Shown here: one piece after another, positions 47,668-58,594 of the stretch
How the letters are laid out: each line of letters starts with the position of its first letter
Position numbering within the stretch: the first letter of the stretch is position 1
Origin: Pseudofrankia sp. DC12
GTDB lineage: Bacteria > Actinomycetota > Actinomycetes > Frankiales > Frankiaceae
NCBI RefSeq assembly: GCF_000966285.1
Contig: NZ_KQ031391.1
Coordinates: 4,604,540-4,668,539, forward strand
Length of the DNA: 64,000 nt
Direction of reading: 5' to 3'
Notes under the pieces: model-generated
Database searches by the model: none
Told to the model about the DNA's origin: nothing
What the model saw: the letters and a program-made list of their open reading frames with translations, nothing else
Program-made: the position numbers and the translations under genes

Positions 47668-49695
47668 CTAACCGGCGAGGGCGTCGAGGACCTGTTGGCC
47701 GTACTTGGCGAGCTTGTTCTCGCCGACGCCGCTGATGGTGGCGAGCTCGGACAAGGTCGACGGCGCCCGGCTGGCGATCTCGCGCAGGGCTGCGTCGTGG
47801 AAGATCACGTAGGCCGGCACGCCCTGCTCCCTGGCGGTGGCGCCACGCCACGCGCGCAGGCGCTCGAAGACCTCCATCTCCGCGGCCGACAGGTCGACCA
47901 CGGCGCGCTTGGCCTTGCCGTCCGCGGACCCGCTGGCCGACCTCGCCCCGGACCCGGCCCTGGCGACCCGCTCGGGGTCGCGCCGCATGGGCACCTGACG
48001 CTGGCCACGCAGCACCTCGGTGCTGGCGTCGGTGAGTACGAGCGTGCCGTGCTCGCCTTCGACAGTGAGGAGTCCCTGGGCGAGCAGCTGCCGGACGACC
48101 CCGCGCCACTGCGACTCGTTCAGCTCGGTCCCGACGCCGAAGACGGACAGCGTCTGGTGCTCGTGCTGCGTCACCTTCGGGGTGGCCCGGCCCAGCAGGA
48201 TGTCGATGTGGTGCCCGGCGCCGAACTTCTGCCGCCGCTCCCGGGCCATCCGCAGCACGGCGGAGAGCAGCTTCTGCGCCGGGACCGTGCCGTCCCACGT
48301 CTCGGGCGGGTGCTGGCAGGTGTCGCAGTTGCCGCAGGCCGCGTGGCCCTCCTGGCCGAAGTAGGCCAGCAGCCCGGCCCGCCGGCACTCGACCGTCTCG
48401 CACAGCGCGAGCATCGCGTCGAGGTGGACGCCCTGGCGGCGGCGGTGCTGGGCGTCACCCTCGCCGGAGTCGATCATCTTGCGGAGCTGGACCACATCCT
48501 GCAGCCCGTAGGCGAGCCAGGCGGTCGACGGCAGCCCGTCGCGGCCGGCCCGGCCGGTCTCCTGGTAGTAGCCCTCGACCGACTTCGGCAGGTCGAGGTG
48601 GGCGACGAAGCGCACGTCAGGCTTGTCGATGCCCATGCCGAACGCGATCGTCGCGACCATCACCAGCCCGTCCTCGCGCAGGAACCGGGACTGGTTGCCC
48701 GCGCGGAGCCGGGCGTCGAGGCCCGCGTGGTAGGGCAGCGCCCGGATCCCGTTGGCGACCAGGAAGTCGGCCGTCTGCTCGACCGACGAGCGTGACAGGC
48801 AGTAGACGATGCCCGCGTCGCCGGCGTGCTCGGTGCGCAGCAGGTCGAGCAGCTGCTTCTTCGGTTCCTTCTTCGGGACGATGTGGTAGGAGATGTTCGG
48901 CCGGTCGAAGTCGGCGACGAAGTGGCGGGCGTCCGTCAGGCCGAGGCGCTGGGTGATCTCCTTGTGGGTGGCCGGGGTCGCGGTCGCCGTCAGCGCGACG
49001 CGGGGCACGTCCGGCCAGCGCTCGTGCAGCGTGGACAGCTCCAGGTAGTCCGGCCGGAAGTCGTGGCCCCACTGGGCGACACAGTGCGCCTCGTCGATCG
49101 CGAACAGCGAGATCCTGGCCCGGTCGAACAGGTCACCGGTGGACGGCAGCCGCAGCCGCTCCGGCGCGAGGTACAGCAGGTCCAGTTCGCCGGCGACGAA
49201 CAGCGCCTCCACAGTCCGGCGCTCGCCCGGGTCCTGCGTGGAGTTCAGGAAGTCGGCTCGGACGCCGAGCGCCCGCAGCGCGTCCACCTGGTCCTGCATG
49301 AGCGCGATGAGCGGCGAGATGACGACCCCGGTGCCCGGCCGGACCAGGGCCGGGATCTGGTAGCACAGCGACTTCCCGCCTCCGGTGGGCATGAGCACGA
49401 GCGCGTCCCCGCCGGCGACGACGTGCTCGATGATGTCGCCCTGGCCCGGCCGGAACGTCTCGTACCCGAACACCCGCCGCAGCACCTGAGCGACCGCGCT
49501 CGGCGTGGCAGTGCCGGCTGGCGTCGCGGCACCGGCCGCGGGCTCGGCGCCACCCGGGGCCACAGCGCTTACTGGTACTGCGGCGCTCACTGGCGCTGTG
49601 GCTTCGGCGGGCGCTGTGGCTTCGGCGGGCGCTGTGGCTTCGGCGGGTGCTGTGGCTTCGGCGGGTGCGGTGGTCTCTGCCAGCGGCAAGGTCAC
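47668..49695 (-). CDS. recQ: ATP-dependent DNA helicase RecQ
   Basis: 675 residues from GTG 49695. Helicase motifs are [12 protein letters not shown] (motif 0), [16 protein letters not shown] (I), [20 protein letters not shown] (Ia), [20 protein letters not shown] (II), VALTATATP (III), [20 protein letters not shown] (V) and [15 protein letters not shown] (VI). The RQC zinc site is [17 protein letters not shown] with CGNCDTC, and a C-terminal HRDC domain is present ([20 protein letters not shown]). The first roughly 50 residues are an Ala/Pro-rich repeat (TAPAEA units) encoded by an 18-bp tandem repeat. It unwinds DNA in repair and recombination. Confidence 0.95.
49593..49664 (-). repeat. 18-bp tandem repeat in the recQ N-terminal coding region
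   Basis: Four head-to-tail 18-bp units (GCGCTGTGGCTTCGGCGG on the plus strand, first base of the second codon varying in the fourth) encode TAPAEA repeats. The unit length is a multiple of three, so copy-number change keeps the recQ frame. Confidence 0.85.
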
Positions 49696-49843
49696 TCCGC
49701 CACTGTAGGAGCCAGGTCCGACACCGGTGCCACCCGCCGCCAGCCTGTGGACAACGCCGGCGGCGAGCCGGCCGGGTGGCCGGCCGGCGACCGGCCCGCG
49801 CCTCGCCGGGACGAGCACGGCCGCGGCAGGCAGGGCGGGCCCG

Positions 49844-50608
49844 TCACGCCAGCCAGGGGAGCTGGATGCGGTGGTCGGTGCCGTGCGGCGGGGTGACGAA
49901 GCCGTTCTCGACCAGCCAGTAGAGGTACTGGGGATCGGTCAGGCCCACCCGGTCGGCGAGCCCCAGCCGCAGCGCGCGGTCGCGGACGGGCCGCAGCCGT
50001 TCGCGGATGGCCTCCTCGGTGACGCCGCCGAGGTGACGGCCGGTGGCCTCGAGGGTCCGCGGCTTCGCCGGCAGCCGCGGCGGCCAGGCCAGCAGCTCGG
50101 CGAACACGTGCCGCAGCGCCGCGTCCTGCTTCTCGGTCAGCGGGGTCGGCGGTGGGGGCGTGAAGGTGATGGTCGTCGTGTTCCGCGCCGGGCTCGGGCC
50201 GGCCTTCGTGATCGGCAGCCGGTCGGCTTCGAGCAGCACCCAGTGGTGCGTGCCGTCAGGCTTGTCGACCGGCTCGGCGTTGAGCACCCGGATCGCGGCC
50301 CGCGGCCAGGAGATGTGCTCCGTCGGCGCCATCTTCCTGGGTGCCTGACCCCACGGGTGCAGGACGGCGCCGTGCCGGTTGGGTACCGAGACCTCCCAGC
50401 CGGACTCGGTCGCCGTCACCATGACCGCCTTGCGGGAGATGCCCTCGCTCCACACCTCCACCCCGAGGGCGAGCATCCCCTCGCGGCCGATGTCCAGGGT
50501 CCCGCCGGTGTCGATCCTCGTGCCGGCCGGCTTCTGCGCCCGCTGCGGCGTGTACTCGTAGACCAGGACCCACCGCTCCTGGCTGATCGCCGGCTCTGCG
50601 CCCCTCAT
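49844..50608 (-). CDS. FHA-like / winged-helix protein, paralogue 1
   Basis: 254 residues from ATG 50608. The N-terminal half resembles a forkhead-associated fold: [52 protein letters not shown] and HGAVLHPWG. The GR, SR and N/HG positions are where FHA domains contact phosphothreonine. After a Pro-rich linker, the C-terminal half looks like a winged-helix module ([50 protein letters not shown]). It is a clear paralogue of the protein at 56768-57541; the two bracket the kinase locus and point inward from recQ and the phosphatase. I infer phosphopeptide recognition linked to DNA or protein binding. Confidence 0.72.
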
Positions 50609-51056
50609 CGCGCTGTCCCGTCGGTCTCGTCGTACGTCTCGTGGTTTCGTGGGTTGCGCGTCACGCGGCCAGGCGAGGAGGGTGACGCGAGGAACGCACT
50701 GTTCAGGCGGGGTGGGAGGGTGATGCGGGCCCCGGTGCCCCGGCCGGCAGCCGCCGCGGCGCCGGTGGGCGGACCGCCCGGCGCTTCCTCCGGTATGAAG
50801 CGGCGACGGACGTGCCGGGCCTGGCGGGGGCGGAGCGCACGGGAGAGCGCGGCTCCGCCCCCGCGGCGGGCCCCGGGACCCGTCGCCGAGCCCCCGCAAC
50901 GGCGGTGCTGGTACCGGGGCATACTCGCATTGTATGGTCAAATTGCAATTTGCATCCTGGATCTGCAGGAAAAAATTTCCGCCCGGCCTACGGTGTCGTT
51001 GGCTGGATTGGTCAACCGGGTATGGGCGGCTGTGGTGGGGGATGGAGGATCTCGGC
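50609..51056. promoter_or_regulatory. Divergent control region with an AT-rich palindrome
   Basis: About 450 bp between FHA-like paralogue 1 and the XRE regulator. CAAATTGCAATTTG (50939-50952) is a perfect 14-bp palindrome in a conspicuously AT-rich patch of an otherwise very GC-rich region, about 105 bp before the XRE start. It is a strong candidate operator, perhaps for the XRE protein itself. Confidence 0.6.
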
Positions 51057-51941
51057 ATGGTTCCCGCGAGGTCGGATGCAGATCGGGCGACGAACGCGGT
51101 CCTGGCGCGTCGGCGGCTCGCGCAGGGCCTGCGGCGCTACCGGCAGCGGGCCGGGCTGACCATCGAGGACCTGGCCCGGGGGCTGGAGTGCTCCGCGGCG
51201 AAGGTCAGCCGGATGGAGACCGGGATCTCGGGAATCCGCATCCAGGACCTCACCGCGATCACCCACCTCATCGACTTCGACGAGTCGGAACGCCGTGACC
51301 TGGAGGAACTGGTCCGACGGGCGCGCGGTCGGGAGTGGTGGCAGGAGTTCACCGACGTCGTCCCGCCCGGGTCGGGGACCTTCTTCGGCCTGGAGGATGG
51401 CGCCGTCACCATCGAGATCCACGCCACCTCGCTCATTCCGGGGCTGCTGCAGACCGCCGGCTACGCGCGGGCGCTGGTGGGCTCCGTGAGCGGCGTCGCC
51501 CCCGAGCTGCTGGCCCGGCGGGTCGCGCTGCGCCAGCGCCGGCAGCGGCTGCTCGACCGGCCCGACCCGCCGAGGCTCAGCGTCCTGATGGACGAGGCCG
51601 TGCTGCGCCGGACGATCGGCGATGGCCCGCTGATGGCGGACCAGTGGGAGCACGTGCTGCGGTGCGCCGAGAGTGCCGGCGTCGTGGTGCAGATCATCCG
51701 GTCCGACGCGCCCGTCCACCCGGCCGAGGGGGTCGGCTTCACCCTGTTCAGCTTCGAGGACCAGGACCTCAGCCCGGTCGTTTTCGCGGAGGCTCTCGGC
51801 CAGCAGACATTCGTGGACGAGCCTGAGCCGGTCCGGGTCTACCTCGACGCGCTCGTCAGTGCGCGGCGTGTTGCCCAGGCCCCGGACATATCGCTGGAGA
51901 TGATGAGTAAACGTGTGACGGAGCTGCGAACAGGGGGCTGA
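51057..51941 (+). CDS. XRE-family regulator with DUF5753 (WhiJ-like)
   Basis: ATG 51057 follows GGAGG by 8 nt; ATG 51042 is an alternative. 294 residues. The N-terminal helix-turn-helix is LRRYRQRAGLTIEDLARGLE, CSAAKVSRMETGISGIRIQD. The DUF5753 domain starts at about residue 95 (FFGLEDGAVTIEIHATSLIP, GLLQTAGYARALVG) and contains RLSVLMDEAVLRRTIGDGPL and HPAEGVGFTLFSFED. In actinomycetes such regulators pair with small DUF397 proteins, as seen here on the opposite strand 32 bp downstream. It probably sits at the head of the kinase locus as its transcriptional switch. Confidence 0.92.
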   Translation: MVPARSDADRATNAVLARRRLAQGLRRYRQRAGLTIEDLARGLECSAAKVSRMETGISGIRIQDLTAITHLIDFDESERRDLEELVRRARGREWWQEFTDVVPPGSGTFFGLEDGAVTIEIHATSLIPGLLQTAGYARALVGSVSGVAPELLARRVALRQRRQRLLDRPDPPRLSVLMDEAVLRRTIGDGPLMADQWEHVLRCAESAGVVVQIIRSDAPVHPAEGVGFTLFSFEDQDLSPVVFAEALGQQTFVDEPEPVRVYLDALVSARRVAQAPDISLEMMSKRVTELRTGG

Positions 51942-51942
51942 C

Positions 51943-51962
51943 CGCCCCGTTTCCGGGGCGGC
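51943..51962. terminator. Bidirectional hairpin between the XRE gene and DUF397 copy 1
   Basis: CCGCCCCG (51943-51950) and CGGGGCGG (51955-51962) with loop TTTC. The same stem recurs at 53870-53889 with a different loop. Confidence 0.65.
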
Positions 51963-51973
51963 CGACCGAACGG

Positions 51974-52261
51974 CTAGCACTCCGGAACTTCGAGCTCCCC
52001 CCGAGGGAGCTCGAACTCGCCGTTGTGTACGCCACGGAGAAAAGCCGCCCACTCGGTGGTGGTGAACAGCAGCACCGGCCCGGCTGGATCCTTCGAGTCC
52101 CGCATCGCGACACCGGTGGGCTCGAAAGCGAGGTCGACGCACGAGTTCTCGATTCCGCAGAAACTGGTGCGCCGCCAGTTCAGGGCCGGCGACGTCTTGC
52201 TGTCACCTCCGGCCTCGGCCTCCAGGCGCGGTCCGCGACTGGGCGTCTGGTTGGTCAACAT
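51974..52261 (-). CDS. DUF397 protein, copy 1
   Basis: 95 residues. The DUF397 core is LNWRRTSFCGIENSCVDLAF, VAMRDSKDPAGPVLLF and TTTEWAAFLRGVHNGEFELP. DUF397 proteins are small acidic partners of XRE/DUF5753 regulators (BldB and AbaA-orfD type), proposed to modulate them. Two cysteines (FCGIENSC) are extra features. The start has TTCCTC on the plus strand, i.e. GAGGAAGG on the sense strand. It is convergent with the XRE gene and divergent from kinase 1, and closely matches copy 2 at 53.9 kb. Confidence 0.9.
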   Translation of the reverse strand: MLTNQTPSRGPRLEAEAGGDSKTSPALNWRRTSFCGIENSCVDLAFEPTGVAMRDSKDPAGPVLLFTTTEWAAFLRGVHNGEFELPRGELEVPEC

Positions 52262-52305
52262 GCCCCTTCCTCCTCTGCGAACGGGGTGCTTCGCGTGAGC
52301 CAGCC

Positions 52306-52350
52306 GGACGGCAGCCGTCTCTCTCCCCCCGAGCGAGACGGCTGCCGTCC
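52306..52350. repeat. Perfect 16-bp hairpin upstream of DUF397 copy 1
   Basis: Arms 52306-52321 and 52335-52350 are perfectly complementary (core ACGGCAGCCGTCTC) around a 13-nt loop rich in C. It sits 45 bp upstream of the DUF397 start in the divergent region. The second locus has related but not self-complementary sequence here (54220-54270). Confidence 0.6.
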
Positions 52351-52370
52351 CGGGTGTCCACGGCCCCCAT

Positions 52371-52440
52371 GGCTGTGTACATCTCGATCAAACGGGAGCC
52401 GGGTCAAGATCACTAGCCTGCGCTGGAGCAGGGTGACCTT
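52371..52440. promoter_or_regulatory. 70-bp conserved intergenic block, copy 1
   Basis: The block runs from GGCTGTG through CTCGATCAAACG and AAGATCACTAGCCTGCGCTG to GCAGGGTGACC. It matches 54289-54358 over 70 bp without gaps, although flanking non-coding sequence has diverged. It includes the imperfect palindrome CCTGCGCTGGAGCAGG. Its conservation between DUF397 and kinase starts suggests a shared operator or divergent promoter. Confidence 0.6.
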
Positions 52441-52678
52441 CCTCAGTAATGGCGGCGTGGGCAATACCGGCCCGGCGCGGTTCCAGGCGACACACAATGC
52501 GGACGCGCACATCCCGCACGGCGGCCGCCGCACGGGTGTCGCTATCGTCACCTCCCGCAGGCCGGCGAAGAGCACCGCGTCTTGCGCCACTGGCGCCGTC
52601 GCCCTGACGTTCCGAGTAACATCTCGGCCCGGCTGCCCCCGGACCGAGCAGCACAACGGCATTTCCACGGGGGATCTG

Positions 52679-53869
52679 ATGTCTGACGCCGGTTTCTGGG
52701 TCGGGCCGTTCACGGCGCCCGACAAATATCGCCTGGTCGAGAACGTGGGCGGCGGCGGCGAGGGTGAGGTGTGGCGCGCGCATCTTCAGCTGTCGATGGC
52801 GGGCCGCGGCACCGTCGCTGTGAAGATCATGCCCGCGAGGCCGGGTGACGAGGCGGACTGGGAAAAGACGGACCGGCTGCTCAGCACGTTGCGTCACCCT
52901 GGCCTCGTCCGCGTCACGGCCGTGTTCACCGGGCCGAAGATGCACCCGGCCGAAGGCGCCGACCCGAGCACTCGGTTCGGCTACGTGGTCATGGACTTCG
53001 TCGAGGGCATGACGCTGCGGGAATGGTACGACGAGAACCCGGAGGCGCTGGTCTCCGAGCGGATCCGGAAGCTGCGCAACGTCGCCGGGGCGCTGGACGA
53101 GATGCATTCGGGGCGGCTGACGGCCGTGCCGGTCGCGCACGGCGACGTGAAGCCCGCGAACATCGTGGTCGACCGGGACGGCAGCACCATGCTGGTCGAC
53201 CTGGGGCTCGCCCGGCTGACCGACGCGACCGGGGTGTCCGGGCGCAGCGCGCCCTATGCGGCGCCCGAGCTGCGCCTCCACGGCGCGATGGCGACGACGT
53301 CGGCCGACTGGTACGCTTTCGCGGCCACGACCGCCCAGGTCCTGCTCGGCGAGAAGCTGCCGACCACCCAGGAGGGCTGGCTGGACGAGGCCGCGCTCGC
53401 CGAGCTGCTGCACCGCGACGAGCTGACCGGCCGGCGACCGGCCCTGATCCACCACGTGCTGCGGACGCTCGCCGCCCGGCCGGAGGAACGGCCGGGCCAG
53501 CCGGGCTGGGCCGCTGCCCAGCACGCTGACCCACTGGCTCGACGCCGCGGCCGACGCACCCTCGCCAGCGGCGGGATGGACGCCACGATGCGGACGTGGA
53601 GCGTCTCCAGCCAGAGCCTGCTGAGCAGCCAGAGCTTCAACAACGAGGTCTGGGAGGTGGTGTTCGCGCCCGGTGGGGGCACCGTGGCCGTCGCCTGCCG
53701 GGACAAGACGGTGCAGGTCTGGAACCTCTCCAACCCACGGTCGCCGAGCTCGGTGGCCACCCTCGACGGTCACAGCGACCTGGTGTCCTCGGTGGCCTGG
53801 GTGCCGGGCGGGCGCACCATCGTCAGCGGCAGCTGGGACACGACGGTCCGGCTCTGGACGTCGGGCTGA
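52679..53869 (+). CDS. Ser/Thr kinase with shortened WD40 part, paralogue 1
   Basis: ATG 52679 follows CGGGGGA and gives 396 residues. The kinase domain (about 15-270) has VGGGGEGEVWRA, VAVKIMPARPG, VVMDFVEGMTLREW, VAHGDVKPANIVV (HGD in place of HRD) and LVDLGLARL (DLG in place of DFG). About 2.5 WD40 repeats remain (GRRTLASGGMDATMRTWSVS, VWNLSNPRSPSSVATL, GRTIVSGSWDTTVRLW). Compared with paralogue 2 it lacks the Pro-rich linker, the TM helix and four or more propeller blades. At the joint, another frame still encodes THWLDAAADA, matching paralogue 2, so a deletion with frame change made this shorter protein. It may be active as a soluble kinase but cannot form a full propeller. Confidence 0.8.
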   Translation: MSDAGFWVGPFTAPDKYRLVENVGGGGEGEVWRAHLQLSMAGRGTVAVKIMPARPGDEADWEKTDRLLSTLRHPGLVRVTAVFTGPKMHPAEGADPSTRFGYVVMDFVEGMTLREWYDENPEALVSERIRKLRNVAGALDEMHSGRLTAVPVAHGDVKPANIVVDRDGSTMLVDLGLARLTDATGVSGRSAPYAAPELRLHGAMATTSADWYAFAATTAQVLLGEKLPTTQEGWLDEAALAELLHRDELTGRRPALIHHVLRTLAARPEERPGQPGWAAAQHADPLARRRGRRTLASGGMDATMRTWSVSSQSLLSSQSFNNEVWEVVFAPGGGTVAVACRDKTVQVWNLSNPRSPSSVATLDGHSDLVSSVAWVPGGRTIVSGSWDTTVRLWTSG

Positions 53870-53889
53870 CCGCCCCGTCGCCGGGGCGG
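53870..53889. terminator. Bidirectional hairpin between kinase 1 and DUF397 copy 2
   Basis: CCGCCCCG (53870-53877) pairs with CGGGGCGG (53882-53889), loop TCGC. The stem is identical to that at 51943-51962. Confidence 0.65.
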
Positions 53890-53901
53890 CCAGCCCGCCG
53901 G

Positions 53902-54183
53902 CTAACAGACAGGTAGTGCGAGCTCCCCCCGAGGGAGCTCGAACTCACCGTTGTGTACGCCCCTCAGGAAGCCGGCCCACTCGGCCGTGGTGAACAGCAG
54001 CACCGGCCCGGACGGGTCCTTCGAGTCCCGGACGGCTACGCCGGTGGGCCTGAACGCGACGTCCACGCAGGCGTTGGTCTCCCCGCAGAAGCTGGTGCGC
54101 CGCCACACCCAGGGCGCCGCGGCCGTGGGGCCGCCCTCGTCCTCCCGGCGCCGACCAGAGCTGATCGACAGGTCGGTCAACAT
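53902..54183 (-). CDS. DUF397 protein, copy 2
   Basis: ATG 54183 has AAGGAGGAAGGGGA directly upstream and gives 93 residues; longer in-frame starts lack ribosome sites. The sequence tracks copy 1 nearly position by position: VWRRTSFCGETNACVDVAFR, VAVRDSKDPSGPVLLF, TTAEWAGFLRGVHNGEFELP. It is convergent with kinase 1 and divergent from kinase 2. There is no second XRE gene beside it, so both DUF397 copies presumably answer to the regulator at 51.1 kb or to one elsewhere. Confidence 0.9.
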   Translation of the reverse strand: MLTDLSISSGRRREDEGGPTAAAPWVWRRTSFCGETNACVDVAFRPTGVAVRDSKDPSGPVLLFTTAEWAGFLRGVHNGEFELPRGELALPVC

Positions 54184-54288
54184 TCCCCTTCCTCCTTCAC
54201 GGGGGTGTTGTTCGTGAACCAGTGACGGACGGTGGTCGCCCGGCCCCCCGACCAGACGGTGGCCGCCCTGGATGCCCACTGCCGCCGT

Positions 54289-54358
54289 GGCTGTGGACGA
54301 CTCGATCAAACGAGATGCGCTCGAAGATCACTAGCCTGCGCTGGCGCAGGGTGACCTG
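54289..54358. promoter_or_regulatory. 70-bp conserved intergenic block, copy 2
   Basis: The match to 52371-52440 includes CTCGATCAAACG and AAGATCACTAGCCTGCGCTG. Here the palindrome is perfect: CCTGCGCTGGCGCAGG (7-bp arms around TG). It lies between DUF397 copy 2 and kinase 2. Confidence 0.6.
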
Positions 54359-54535
54359 GCCCGCTGCGGCTGGCGGCAGCCGGTGGGCAGGCGTTATCGT
54401 CGCTTTCCGCACCTTTGAGGCCGAGGTCGTCTTCTTGCGTGACCTGGGGCGTCTTGGCGCGGTGGGCCTGCGCCTTCTCGGTGGCGCCCCGCCTCGGCCG
54501 AGACGTGACACGACGGCATGCATCCGGGGGACCCC

Positions 54536-56728
54536 TTGTCTGACGCCGACTTCTGGGTTGGTCCTGCCGCGGATCCCGACAAGTACCGCCTGGTCGAGCA
54601 GGTGGGCAGGGGTGGCGAGGGCGAGGTATGGCGGGCGGTGCTCCCGCTGTCGGCCGCCGGCCGTACCACGGTCGCCATCAAGATCATGCCGGCCCGGCCA
54701 GGTGACGAGGCCGAGTGGGAGCAGACCGACCGGCTGCTGAGCACGCTGCACCACCCTGGGCTGGTCCGGGTCACCGACGTGTTCACCGGTCCGCACCAGC
54801 ACCGGGCTGGTCTCGCGGATACCGCCACCCGGTCCGGCTACGTCGTCATGGACTTCGTCGAGGGCCTGACGCTGCGGGAGTGGTACAACGAGCACCCGGA
54901 CGCCCGGATCTCCGACCGGATCCGCAAGCTGCGCAACGTCGCGGGCGCGCTCGACGAGATGCACTCCGGCCGGGCGACCAACGTGCCGGTCGCCCATGGT
55001 GACGTGAAGCCGGCCAACATCGTGGTGCGCGAGGACGGCGGCACCGTGCTGGTCGATCTCGGGCTGGCCCGGCTCACCGACGCGGCCGGGGCGTCCGGGC
55101 GCAGCGCGCCCTATGCCGCGCCGGAGATGCGCGTCCCCGGCGCGATGTCGACCCCGTCGGCCGACTGGTACGCCTTCGCGGCGACGACCGCACAGGTCCT
55201 GCTGGGCGCCCGGCTGCCGATGACGCCGGAGGGCTGGCTCGACGAGCGGGCGCTCGCCGAACGGCTGCACCGTAACCCGCTGACCGCGCGCCGCCCGGCC
55301 CTGATCCAGCACATCCAGGACACGCTCGCGGCTCCACCGCAGGTCAGGACGGGCTCGCTCGCGCTCTGGCTTGACGCGGCGCTTGACACGCTGTCGCAGA
55401 AGACCATCACCTCGGGCGGCACCCCGACGCCCGTGTACGTCGTGCCGCCGCCCCCGACAGGCACCGCGCCGTCTGACGGCCGGGACCCGTGGACAGCCCG
55501 ACCGGCCGCGGTGACGTCCGAGCCGGTGCCGGGCGTGCGCCAGACGGACGAGGCGGCCACCCGGGTCTGGCGGGACCACGACGCCGGGCTCTCCGGCGCC
55601 GCGCCGGCCGCCTCTCCCATACGCCCGCGTCGTGGCCGCCGGGCCTGGGTGATACCCGCGGTGATCGGCGCTGCGGTCCTGCTGCTGCTCGGCACCGTCG
55701 TGGGGATCGTCGAGTTCGGCGGCCGGTCCGGCTCCAGGGCCAACGCGGCCGGCGGCCCGCAGCCCTCCATCGCCGTGCCCGTCCCCTTCCACGCGCTGGG
55801 CACGCCGCTGGTCGGCCACACCGACCGGGTCCAGACGGTGGCGTTCTCGCCGGACGGGCGCACCCTGGCCAGCGGCAGCGACGACGGCACGGTGCACCTG
55901 TGGGACGTCTCGAGGCTGTCGGCGCCGCGCGACCTGGGACGCCTGACCGGCCATACCGACAAGGTCGACGCGGTGGCGTTCTCGCCGGACGGGCGCACCC
56001 TCGCCAGCAGCGGCGAGGACCACACGGTGCGCCTCTGGGACGTGTCCCATCCGTCGCAGGCACACTTCCTGACGGCCCTGACCGGTGACACCGGCCCGGT
56101 CTGGGCGCTCGCGTTCTCGCCGGACCGGCGGACCCTGGCGACCGGCAGCGGCGACCACACGGTGCGGCTGTGGGACGTCTCGAACCCGGCGGCCCCGACC
56201 TTGCTGGGCGGGCCGATGACGGAGCCCAACCAGGTCTGGTCGGTGGCGTTCTCCCGCGACGGCCGGATCCTGGCCACCGGCAACCACGACGGCATCATGC
56301 GGTTCTACGACCTGTCCAACCCGCGGAACCCTGTCGTCGTCTCCAGCACGGTGGCCCATACGAAGCCGGTCCTGTGCGTGGTGTTCGCGCCCAACGGCCA
56401 CATCCTCGCCAGCGCCAGCCCCGACCATCTCGTCCGGCTGTGGGACGTGTCCAACCCGACAGCACCGATCCCGCTGGGCAGCCCGCTGATCCTGCCCAAC
56501 GAGGCGTGGACGGTGGCGTTCACGCGCGACGGGCGCACCCTGGCCGCCGGCGGCGCCGACGACACGGTCCGGCTGTGGGACGTCCAGGACCCGACGCAGC
56601 CGACCCCGATCGGCTCCCCGCTGCTCGGTCACACCAACACGGTCACCGGGGTGGCCTTCTCGCCCGACGGGCGGACGCTCGCCAGCAGCAGCTGGGACTA
56701 CTCGGTGCGGCTGTGGCAGGCACGCTGA
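54536..56728 (+). CDS. Transmembrane Ser/Thr kinase with WD40 propeller, paralogue 2
   Basis: TTG 54536 is chosen: it aligns with the ATG of paralogue 1 and follows GGGGGA; ATG 54518 upstream has no ribosome site. 730 residues. Kinase domain: VGRGGEGEVWRAVLPLS, VAIKIMPARPG, VVMDFVEGLTLREW, VAHGDVKPANIVV, VLVDLGLARL and a YAAPE activation-loop end. A Pro/Thr linker leads to one TM helix (AWVIPAVIGAAVLLLLGTVV), then seven WD40 repeats of the form VAFSPDGRTLASGSDDGTVH with LWDVS ends, forming one complete external propeller. I infer that the propeller senses a ligand outside the cell and the kinase signals inside, to FHA-like partners nearby. Confidence 0.92.
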   Translation: MSDADFWVGPAADPDKYRLVEQVGRGGEGEVWRAVLPLSAAGRTTVAIKIMPARPGDEAEWEQTDRLLSTLHHPGLVRVTDVFTGPHQHRAGLADTATRSGYVVMDFVEGLTLREWYNEHPDARISDRIRKLRNVAGALDEMHSGRATNVPVAHGDVKPANIVVREDGGTVLVDLGLARLTDAAGASGRSAPYAAPEMRVPGAMSTPSADWYAFAATTAQVLLGARLPMTPEGWLDERALAERLHRNPLTARRPALIQHIQDTLAAPPQVRTGSLALWLDAALDTLSQKTITSGGTPTPVYVVPPPPTGTAPSDGRDPWTARPAAVTSEPVPGVRQTDEAATRVWRDHDAGLSGAAPAASPIRPRRGRRAWVIPAVIGAAVLLLLGTVVGIVEFGGRSGSRANAAGGPQPSIAVPVPFHALGTPLVGHTDRVQTVAFSPDGRTLASGSDDGTVHLWDVSRLSAPRDLGRLTGHTDKVDAVAFSPDGRTLASSGEDHTVRLWDVSHPSQAHFLTALTGDTGPVWALAFSPDRRTLATGSGDHTVRLWDVSNPAAPTLLGGPMTEPNQVWSVAFSRDGRILATGNHDGIMRFYDLSNPRNPVVVSSTVAHTKPVLCVVFAPNGHILASASPDHLVRLWDVSNPTAPIPLGSPLILPNEAWTVAFTRDGRTLAAGGADDTVRLWDVQDPTQPTPIGSPLLGHTNTVTGVAFSPDGRTLASSSWDYSVRLWQAR

Positions 56729-56752
56729 CCGGCCAGGCCCGGCCCGGCCGGT
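56728..56752. terminator. Hairpin between kinase 2 and FHA-like paralogue 2
   Basis: ACCGGCC (56728-56734) pairs with GGCCGGT (56746-56752) across an 11-nt GC-rich loop, between convergent genes. Confidence 0.5.
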
Positions 56753-56767
56753 GAGCCACCCGTCGGG

Positions 56768-57541
56768 TCATTCGAGCCAGGGGAGTGCCACCCGGTGGTT
56801 CCCGCCGGTGGGCGCCGCGAGATAGCCGTTGCTCACCAGCACATAGAGGTACTCGGGATTGTTGAGGCCGACGTTGTGGTGCAGGCCGAGCCGCAACGCG
56901 CGGTCGTGGGCGTGGGCGAGCCGGTCCCGCACGCCCGCCTCGCTGATCCCCAGCCGGCTGGCTACCTGCTTGAGCTGCAGCGGCTCGGCCGGCACCCGCG
57001 GCGGCCACACCAGCAGCGGCTCGAACACCGTCCGGACGGCGTCCTCCTGCGGCCCGGACAGCGGGCCCGGCGGCGCGGGGGTGACGGTCGCGCTGGTCGT
57101 CCGGCTGCTCGGGCGCGGGCCGGCGGGAGTGATGACGAGCAGGTCGGCCTCCAACAGCACCCAGTGGTAGCTCGTGTGCGGCTGGTCGAACCGCTGCCCG
57201 TTGTGGAACCGGATCGCCACCCGGGGCCAGGCGATGCTCTGGTGGCCGGAGATCTGCTGCGGCGGCTGGCCCCAGGCGTGCAGCGTCGCGCCGTTGGCGT
57301 TGCGCAGGTCGAGGTCCCAGCCCGCCTCGGTCGCGGTCACGACGACGGCGACCCGGGAGATGCCCTCACTCGTCACCTCGACGCCGAGCGAGAGCTCCCG
57401 CTCGCGCCCGATCTCCAGCGAGCGGCCGACGGCCAGGCGGGTGCCCACCGGCGGCCGGCGCCGTGCCGGCCCGTGCTCGTAGGCCAGGACCCAGCGTTCG
57501 TGGGCCGCCGCCGGCTGGGCCCCGGTCCCCTGGGTCGCCAT
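56768..57541 (-). CDS. FHA-like / winged-helix protein, paralogue 2
   Basis: 257 residues from ATG 57541 with GGGAG about 9 nt upstream. It aligns end to end with the protein at 49844-50608: ERWVLAYEHGPA, LEIGRERELSLGVEVTSEGI, SRVAVVVTATEAGWDLDLRN, NGATLHAWGQPPQ and [17 protein letters not shown], then the winged-helix-like LKQVASRLGISEAGVRDRLA and a common ending VALPWLE. The NG pair and SR motif are the positions expected for a phosphothreonine-binding FHA fold, but overall FHA similarity is modest. It is convergent with kinase 2, which makes it a natural candidate reader of that kinase. Confidence 0.74.
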   Translation of the reverse strand: MATQGTGAQPAAAHERWVLAYEHGPARRRPPVGTRLAVGRSLEIGRERELSLGVEVTSEGISRVAVVVTATEAGWDLDLRNANGATLHAWGQPPQQISGHQSIAWPRVAIRFHNGQRFDQPHTSYHWVLLEADLLVITPAGPRPSSRTTSATVTPAPPGPLSGPQEDAVRTVFEPLLVWPPRVPAEPLQLKQVASRLGISEAGVRDRLAHAHDRALRLGLHHNVGLNNPEYLYVLVSNGYLAAPTGGNHRVALPWLE

Positions 57542-57691
57542 CCCGTCGAACTCCCGCCCTGACCCGCGTGGAACGCATGCGCTTTTCGCCTATCCTGCAC
57601 GGCGCATGACCGGGATCGAAGAAGACGCAGCCAGAAGTGGCGGGTACCCCAGCCTGTTCCCGGGGTCGCCCTGGCCCGGGAAGGCCGCCCG

Positions 57692-58594
57692 ATGCCCGCC
57701 CGGGAAGCCGCAGGCACGACCGGGAAGAATGACGGCGTGTCCGAACCGCGTACCGGGGCCGGGGCCGCCGGGGCCAACGACCGCGTCAGGCCCGCGCCGG
57801 TCGACAGGCGTGCCGAACACGGCCCGTTCGACGTGATCGGTGACGTGCACGGCTGCTCGGACGAGCTGGAGGAGCTGCTCGGCCTGCTCGGCTACCAGCT
57901 GGGACGCGACCCGGCGGGCCGGGCGGTCGGCGCCCGGCATCCGGCCGGCCGGCGGGTGATCTTCGTCGGTGACCTCATCGACCGCGGCCCCCACCCGGCG
58001 GCGGTGCTGCGGCTCGCGATGGGCATGGTCGCCGCGGGTGACGCACTGGCCGTCGCCGGAAACCACGAGCACAAGCTGGTCCGAGCGCTCGGCGGCGGGG
58101 GTGCCGGCGCCGGCGGGCCAGCCAAGGTCGGCCAGAACCTGGCGCGGACCCTCGAACAGCTGGCCGCGGAGCCGGCGGCGTTCCAGGAGGCCGCGTTCGC
58201 CTTCTGCGCGGGGCTCGGGTCGCACCTCGTGCTCGACGACGGGCGGCTGGTCGTGGCGCACGCCGGCCTGAAGGAGAGCTACCACGGCCACGACTCGGCC
58301 CAGGTCCGCGCCTTCGCGCTGTTCGGCGACACCACCGGCGAGCGCGACGAGTACGGCTTCCCGGTCCGGCGGCCGTGGGCGAACGAGTACCGGGGCCGGG
58401 CGATGGTGCTCTACGGCCATACCCCGGGCACCGGGCATCGGTGGGTGAACAACACCCTTTGCCTCGACACCGGCTGTTGCTTCGGCGGCGCGCTGACCGC
58501 CGTCCGCTACCCGGAGCGCGAGCAGCTGCGGGTTCCCGCGCGGCGCGTCTACCACCAGCCGACGCGCCCGCTGCACGACATGCCCGCCGCCTAG
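57692..58594 (+). CDS. PPP-family metallophosphoesterase (PrpA/ApaH-like)
   Basis: 300 residues from ATG 57692; GTG 57737 is an alternative with GGGAAGAA upstream. The metal-site motifs are FDVIGDVHGCSDEL, VIFVGDLIDRGPHP, VAGNHEHKLVR, VVAHAGLKE and VLYGHTPG. These define the PPP superfamily (protein phosphatases, bacterial PrpA, diadenosine tetraphosphatase). The substrate may be phosphoprotein or Ap4A. Its place next to a Ser/Thr kinase locus makes a counteracting phosphatase role attractive, though this is inference: it starts 150 bp from FHA-like paralogue 2, divergently. Confidence 0.88.
   Translation: MPAREAAGTTGKNDGVSEPRTGAGAAGANDRVRPAPVDRRAEHGPFDVIGDVHGCSDELEELLGLLGYQLGRDPAGRAVGARHPAGRRVIFVGDLIDRGPHPAAVLRLAMGMVAAGDALAVAGNHEHKLVRALGGGGAGAGGPAKVGQNLARTLEQLAAEPAAFQEAAFAFCAGLGSHLVLDDGRLVVAHAGLKESYHGHDSAQVRAFALFGDTTGERDEYGFPVRRPWANEYRGRAMVLYGHTPGTGHRWVNNTLCLDTGCCFGGALTAVRYPEREQLRVPARRVYHQPTRPLHDMPAA

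Follow-up and report, generated by a model that had tools for sequence, protein, structure and literature searches.

Gene organization of the tandem locus

We analysed a 64,000-bp window of the Pseudofrankia sp. DC12 genome (contig NZ_KQ031391.1, positions 4,604,540 to 4,668,539), which is assembled as a single contig of 6.88 Mb, with attention to a 70-bp intergenic block that occurs twice between a DUF397 gene and a Ser/Thr kinase gene. The block belongs to a tandem-duplicated unit consisting of a terminator hairpin, the DUF397 gene, the block itself, and the kinase gene. Genes at this locus are arranged in the order FHA-like gene 1 (minus strand), XRE/DUF5753 regulator gene (plus), DUF397-a (minus), kinase A (plus), DUF397-b (minus), kinase B (plus), and FHA-like gene 2 (minus).

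The WhiJ-like regulator encoded at 51057–51941 (start codon inferred) matched HTH_31 with 53.4 bits and DUF5753 with 167.7 bits, both above cut-off, and scored 202.8 against the Sco1979-family model, below the cut-off of 350. DUF397-a (51974–52261), coding for a BldB-like small protein, and DUF397-b (53902–54183) matched PF04149 above cut-off with 70.0 and 71.6 bits, respectively. The regulator and the adjoining DUF397 genes have the gene content of an XRE-DUF397 (WhiJ-BldB) module. The third gene that is common, though not universal, for such pairs in Streptomyces, coding for an AbaA-type HATPase or IosA, was not found at the locus; in its place are genes for kinases with WD40 repeats, kinase A (52679–53869) and kinase B (54518–56728), both with a Pfam protein kinase domain, and for proteins with an FHA fold and a helix-turn-helix (HTH)-like part. 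Of the latter, gene 2 (56768–57541) is the usual FHA gene of the module, and gene 1 (49844–50608; start codon inferred from alignment) is an extra copy, 54% identical to gene 2.

By BLASTN, 51935–52439 was paired with 53863–54357 at 75% identity (DUF397 and block stretches), and 52652–53497 with 54509–55354 at 80% identity (kinase-domain stretches). Together with gene calls and Pfam, these matches located both units at the places and in the order given in a preliminary description of this DNA, and its claim that control DNA was duplicated along with the genes was borne out by BLASTN and by the comparison of the block across genomes. Two hairpins were folded together with their flanks: one where the XRE and DUF397-a genes converge (51940–51963; z −2.88, −24.5 kcal/mol), a probable two-way terminator, and one where kinase A and DUF397-b converge (53868–53891; z −3.04, −29.6 kcal/mol). 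As the XRE stop codon and the kinase A stop codon each extend into the same GGCTGACCGCCCC hairpin, the repeated unit begins at the terminator. The same tandem was found in two genomes of the same genus, G002 and G006. Since the kinase domains of copies A and B are 77–78% identical, closer to each other than to those of the single-unit relatives L054 (62%) and L100 (65%), the duplication appears to be group-specific. Five other congeners searched carried neither a block match within 2 mismatches nor a kinase above 47% identity.

Conservation and symmetry of the intergenic block

The block is located at 52371–52440 in copy A and at 54289–54358 in copy B. The two copies are 75% identical in DUF397 coding DNA and 67% identical in the spacer on the DUF397 side; identity is 83% over the block, falls to 39% in the spacer towards the kinase, and reaches 97% in a 32-bp core (52406–52437). 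Identity thus peaks over the block instead of being uniform across the duplication, as expected if the block is better conserved than the DNA beside it. For the six copies from the three genomes, 30 of the 32 core columns were invariant. In the intergenic alignment of these copies, the longest invariant run was 21 columns and the best 32-column window held 30 invariant columns; neither value was reached in any of 20,000 column permutations. Random occurrence in the genome was also not observed, as AAGATCACTAGCCTGCGCTG was detected, allowing up to 3 mismatches in 6.88 Mb, only at the two units. Sequence comparison therefore supports the suggestion of the preliminary description that both units share a conserved candidate site of the protein-binding type.

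Tandem copies are able to convert each other, and the similarity could in principle be a functionless residue of recent duplication or gene conversion. We consider this extremely unlikely. The kinase-side spacers of the copies are only 37–39% alike, and certain block letters are copy-specific in all three genomes, A copies reading GGAGCAGG and B copies GGCGCAGG. Persistence of these letters is better explained by purifying selection than by recent gene conversion, and indicates that the duplication predates the divergence of these species, the block being held by selection. The dyad described below recurs, moreover, in four other lineages.

The core of the block was resolved as a 20-bp dyad, A-NN-CTGYGC-NN-GNRCAG-N-GT, at 52415–52434 (14-bp core, 52418–52431) in copy A and at 54333–54352 (14-bp core, 54336–54349) in copy B. 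Among the seven listed sites, symmetry holds at seven position pairs in five or more sites, and at five of these pairs, the outer A/T, the CTG/CAG, and one inner C/G pair, in all seven; the search pattern itself accounts for part of the inner symmetry, but not for that of the outer A/T. A second element, the CGATCAAAC box, lies at 52385–52393 in copy A, 33 bp from the dyad start, and at 54303–54311 in copy B. Nine of the 11 sites have a box of this CGATCAMAC type, always at exactly 33 bp ahead of the dyad; in copy B of G002, one of the nine, it reads CGATCCAAC. Among 35 genomes of the family, CGATCAMAC followed by CTGYGC after a 22- to 26-bp gap gave 24 matches, as against none for the reversed control. 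All eight matches with a 24-bp gap are in the module, and the 16 with other gaps are outside it. From the dyad to the DUF397 start downstream of it, the distance is 115–157 bp at ten sites and 231 bp in L100, as measured from start codons inferred from ribosome-binding-site-like context.

The block might instead be a core promoter or a site for some global regulator, kept because both units are transcribed from it. It does lie in divergent intergenic DNA, and TAGCCT (52414–52419), overlapping the dyad, fits the loose −10 rule TANNNT. On the other hand, a search for sigma-70-like promoters between 51900 and 54700 found none; the dyad symmetry, the 24-bp gap between boxes, and the confinement of exact-gap two-box sites to the module agree better with a local operator; and TATCGT, nearer the kinase (52543 and 54395) and common to both units, is a better −10 candidate. 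This explanation is accordingly judged quite unlikely. L054 and all six copies retain the TATCGT sequence (52543–52548 and 54395–54400 in the window); in the window copies it stands about 130 bp before the kinase start, and may be the −10 element of a kinase promoter.

The dyad could also act as an RNA hairpin in the leader of DUF397 or the kinase. Pairing is indeed kept through a two-sided change, CTGTGC/GCACAG in L100 corresponding to CTGCGC/GCGCAG in window copy B, but a dyad acting as DNA would be just as likely to show such a change. As RNA, the stem as read from the sequence has about five pairs with no T run following, and no Rfam family was detected at gathering level within 49500–58000, so that a role as RNA is highly improbable. 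A conserved RNA element elsewhere in the DUF397 leader was also rejected: leader folding gave z of −3.57 for window copy A and −2.65 for L054 as against no signal for copy B (+1.08), L100 (+0.47), and L101 (−0.45), and a weak one for L102 (−1.34) and L103 (−1.51). The leader of DUF397-a includes a strong inverted repeat (52306–52350, minus strand), detected as a BLASTN self match and poorly kept in copy B; the strong leader hairpin of L054 is unrelated to it.

Distribution of the dyad among related and control loci

Relatives of the module were found at L054 (also present in G006), L100 (in G015), L101 (G026), L102 (G028), and L103 (G013). All five hold XRE, DUF397, and FHA-like genes, the XRE gene of L103 being about 1.6 kb from DUF397, and a related kinase was found in L054, L100, and L103. 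By eye, the intergenic DNA is otherwise unalike across lineages, and yet CTGYGC-NN-GNRCAG is present upstream of DUF397 in each. A 19-bp consensus was recovered upstream of DUF397 with shuffle p of 0.013 for L054, 0.0145 for L100, 0.001 for L103, and 0.0005, the minimum possible with 2,000 shuffles, for both L101 and L102, as compared with 0.76 for the control locus L140. With L101 and L102 counted as one lineage because of their near identity at the dyad region, the dyad is located upstream of all 11 DUF397 genes at eight loci, representing five sequence lineages, that combine XRE, DUF397, and FHA-HTH genes. In L101–L103 the FHA gene, and not a kinase gene, lies on the far side of the dyad, leaving DUF397 as the constant neighbour. 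Two further sites were observed: a second dyad with one mismatch in L054 (L054:6967-6980), 32 bp before the main one, and a second exact dyad at 10625 in L100, about 7 kb from the DUF397 gene and taken as chance.

The search for the XRE protein in the 35 genomes gave 85 matches at E 1e-45 or better, of which 11 were close (more than 300 bits; the next, 182 bits). Eight of these 11 are the dyad-bearing loci. The other three carry no exact dyad in the DNA covered: L139, in which no DUF397 was found; L140, with DUF397 and no adjoining kinase or FHA gene; and L141, a 3.8-kb contig that is uninformative for the dyad. L139 and L140 occupy the same position, beside recQ-like and metallophosphoesterase-like genes (named from the translations and DNA); as this position carries only XRE or XRE-DUF397 in the two congeners, a gain or loss of the kinase/FHA part took place there. 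No exact dyad was detected in 20 of the 74 more distant XRE loci (211 kb), all with a DUF397 match nearby, nor in eight FHA-like loci where neither XRE nor DUF397 was detected by tblastn (L104–L108, L094, L081, and L082). Of these eight, L081 and L082 carry a kinase, and the DNA covered is short for L094 and L081.

Matches near other DUF397 promoters of the same genome, as anticipated in the preliminary description, did not materialize. The exact dyad was present at none of the six other DUF397 loci (about 3.2 kb each); for five of them the 19-bp core stayed at shuffle level, and in the sixth, L002, a site distinct from the dyad scored 16/19, the highest of 100 shuffles being 15. A general DUF397 operator was hence rejected, for want of exact dyads at these six loci and at the 20 control XRE loci. 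In other genomes, however, diverged forms of the module do carry the site ahead of DUF397, and from this combination of absence and presence we conclude that it belongs to the module. A wider regulon was also rejected, since AGATCACTAGCCTGCGCTGG with up to 3 mismatches occurred 15 times outside the locus in the 35 genomes and 15 times for the reversed control. Four looser matches to the block within the genus were inspected as sequence, one of which, L056, falls inside a 556-codon open frame.

As the exact dyad is absent from XRE loci without the FHA gene, XRE-DUF397 controls, and FHA loci without XRE and DUF397, it goes with the gene combination. These comparisons lend good support to the view that the block is a shared candidate protein-binding site specific for the module, rather than a general DUF397 promoter element. 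The association fits a module operator; it does not single out the binder.

Candidate binders and the partner proteins

We propose that the block is the conserved operator of a WhiJ/BldB-like module that includes a Ser/Thr kinase and an FHA-HTH protein, and that the XRE/DUF5753 protein is its likeliest binder; our confidence in this proposal is about even. A module of the WhiJ/BldB type would have acquired the kinase and FHA-HTH partner. A dimer of the adjoining XRE/DUF5753 protein would bind the 20-bp dyad and thereby set transcription of DUF397 and, where it is divergent, of the kinase, while DUF397 would counteract the XRE protein on the model of WhiJ and its DUF397 partner. Tandem duplication would have copied the operator along with its genes, in which case both DUF397-kinase pairs should answer to a single regulator.

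The XRE protein is favoured on the precedents of WhiJ9 and WhiJ/SCO4542. Published passages describe WhiJ9 as binding to repeats between iosA and whiJ9 and as required for iosA activation in the bldB mutant, and BldB, a DUF397 protein, as apparently not binding DNA (PMC10294661). SCO4542 is described as holding WhiJ off its target DNA, and Cpb1, a WhiJ-type protein, is said to bind the promoter of its target chiA (PMC6262351). By analogy, binding of the XRE protein to the intergenic DNA and modulation of this binding by DUF397 are putative for the present module.

Several observations weigh against this assignment. L139 and L140 encode near-identical XRE HTHs without adjoining kinase or FHA genes and without the dyad, and hence the XRE gene alone does not keep the dyad. 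In the window, exact dyads are present only at the two blocks and not at the promoter of the XRE gene itself. The CGATCAMAC box is missing in two of the 11 sites, L054 and L100. The XRE recognition helix differs little from that of controls, and was uninformative as to covariation with the dyad. As described for WhiJ9, its repeats are direct, with the consensus CGXXCTCAAC (PMC10294661), unlike the dyad, and no such direct repeats were recognized by eye in the block, which contains the dyad and the CGATCAMAC box. The search pattern was first written by eye from the window, L054, L100, and L101, leaving only L102 and L103 outside, and the 19-bp consensus took its letters from the six window-type copies only, its extent being chosen after the relatives had been seen. 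The dyad count alone was rejected as evidence: CTGYGCNNGNRCAG occurred 24 times forward and 20 times reverse in the genome as against 31 and 36 times for the reversed control, and without enrichment only position and association carry weight.

A serious rival for the role of binder, although we hold it to be unlikely, is the FHA-HTH protein. The kinase would phosphorylate a partner or the FHA protein, and a LuxR-like HTH would act at the DUF397/kinase promoter, giving a kinase-to-FHA-to-DNA loop within one locus. FHA-like proteins of this kind, with an FHA fold and a C-terminal HTH-like part, were found in 12 of 393 sampled genomes of the class; the two encoded in the window matched none of the Pfam, NCBIfam, or PADLOC models at E 0.01. 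FHA domains have conserved G-R, S, and N residues, and usually a histidine in the SRxH motif. In the alignment, G45, R46, S62, and N81 were invariant in all 17 proteins, consistent with the FHA fold, and alanine stands at the histidine position; phosphothreonine binding is putative. The AlphaFold2 model of gene 2 (pLDDT 81.4) predicts a beta sandwich and a helical C-terminal part. Its two best PDB matches were FHA domains (E 5e-4 and 7e-4), followed by IRF and Smad MH2, and the weaker matches include LuxR/NarL-type proteins. In favour of this protein are the predicted architecture, the presence of its gene at all eight dyad loci, and the lack of the dyad at L139 and L140, which have XRE and no FHA gene. 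Against it, the eight FHA loci without detected XRE and DUF397 carry no exact dyad, the dyad-less L104 is as similar to window FHA-2 as module copies are, and the NarL/LuxR-type HTH matches are weak (E 0.06 or worse).

The two kinase copies are unequal. Kinase B is full length, with a kinase domain, an apparent membrane span (read from the sequence), and seven WD40 stretches; in the alignment, the start of kinase A corresponds to TTG at 54536. Kinase A has 396 residues as compared with 925 in the G002 orthologue, to which its residues 1–297 and 294–396 align at 1–308 and 823–925. About 1.6 kb was lost by internal deletion, including the membrane span and most WD40 repeats, so that the kinase domain and the last repeats remain. 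The frame is still open, and the residues just before the junction look frame-shifted relative to G002; the deletion may conceivably reflect an assembly error. The kinase A frame of G006 reads 1035 residues, continuing beyond the normal end across a run of N. The copy A kinase may no longer sense what copy B does. A defence system was considered and not adopted. The PADLOC kinase models hit by kinase B (mad6, 5e-29; PD-T4-6, 2e-26) align to its kinase domain, and one HEAT-ARM model to its repeats; of the remaining five proteins, the XRE protein alone gave a match, a weak one.

With respect to known systems, the locus resembles WhiJ9-BldB9-IosA of Streptomyces in that an XRE regulator, a DUF397 protein, and a third target gene are described there together with an intergenic regulatory site (PMC10294661). 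It differs from the WhiJ-BldB-AbaA/IosA loci in its third genes and in that DUF397 converges on the XRE gene. The same two protein families constitute the Scr1/Scr2-type pairs, once proposed to be a type II toxin-antitoxin system; in the passages cited, DUF397 is said to be non-toxic to the host (PMC8269248), and there are reports of DUF397 genes in tandem beside a single XRE gene, and of two-way terminators at the 3' ends of XRE-DUF397 pairs (PMC8269248, PMC7159879). In contrast to these pairs, each DUF397 copy in the window has its own kinase gene and its own putative operator copy. As for the partner genes, PknB-type Ser/Thr kinases are encoded beside an FHA-fold protein, as is the kinase here; the window kinase, however, carries WD40 repeats and not PASTA, and its FHA protein has an HTH-like part and a replaced SRxH histidine.

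No description of a WD40 Ser/Thr kinase and an FHA-HTH protein combined with XRE-DUF397 was found in the passages of open-licence PMC literature consulted. The candidate operator and the kinase/FHA-HTH version of the XRE-DUF397 module appear to be new; the general type of system is known, and DUF397 genes in tandem were already reported. The finding bears on how BldB-type DUF397 proteins work. In the literature passages, one WhiJ-type site, that of WhiJ9, has so far been mapped in detail (PMC10294661). With its natural variants from five lineages, a candidate operator that is short, defined, and duplicated offers a direct assay for the XRE, DUF397, kinase, and FHA-HTH proteins; it also connects the XRE-DUF397 family with a WD40 Ser/Thr kinase and an FHA-HTH protein. 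More speculatively, and in our estimate improbably, the WD40 kinase, its FHA-HTH partner, and the WhiJ-like regulator might converge on one 20-bp operator as a one-locus phospho-signalling circuit, in which a phosphorylation-switched FHA-HTH protein would compete or cooperate with the XRE protein at the operator preceding every DUF397 gene of the module. Such a circuit, if true, would couple Ser/Thr kinase signalling to BldB-type regulation.

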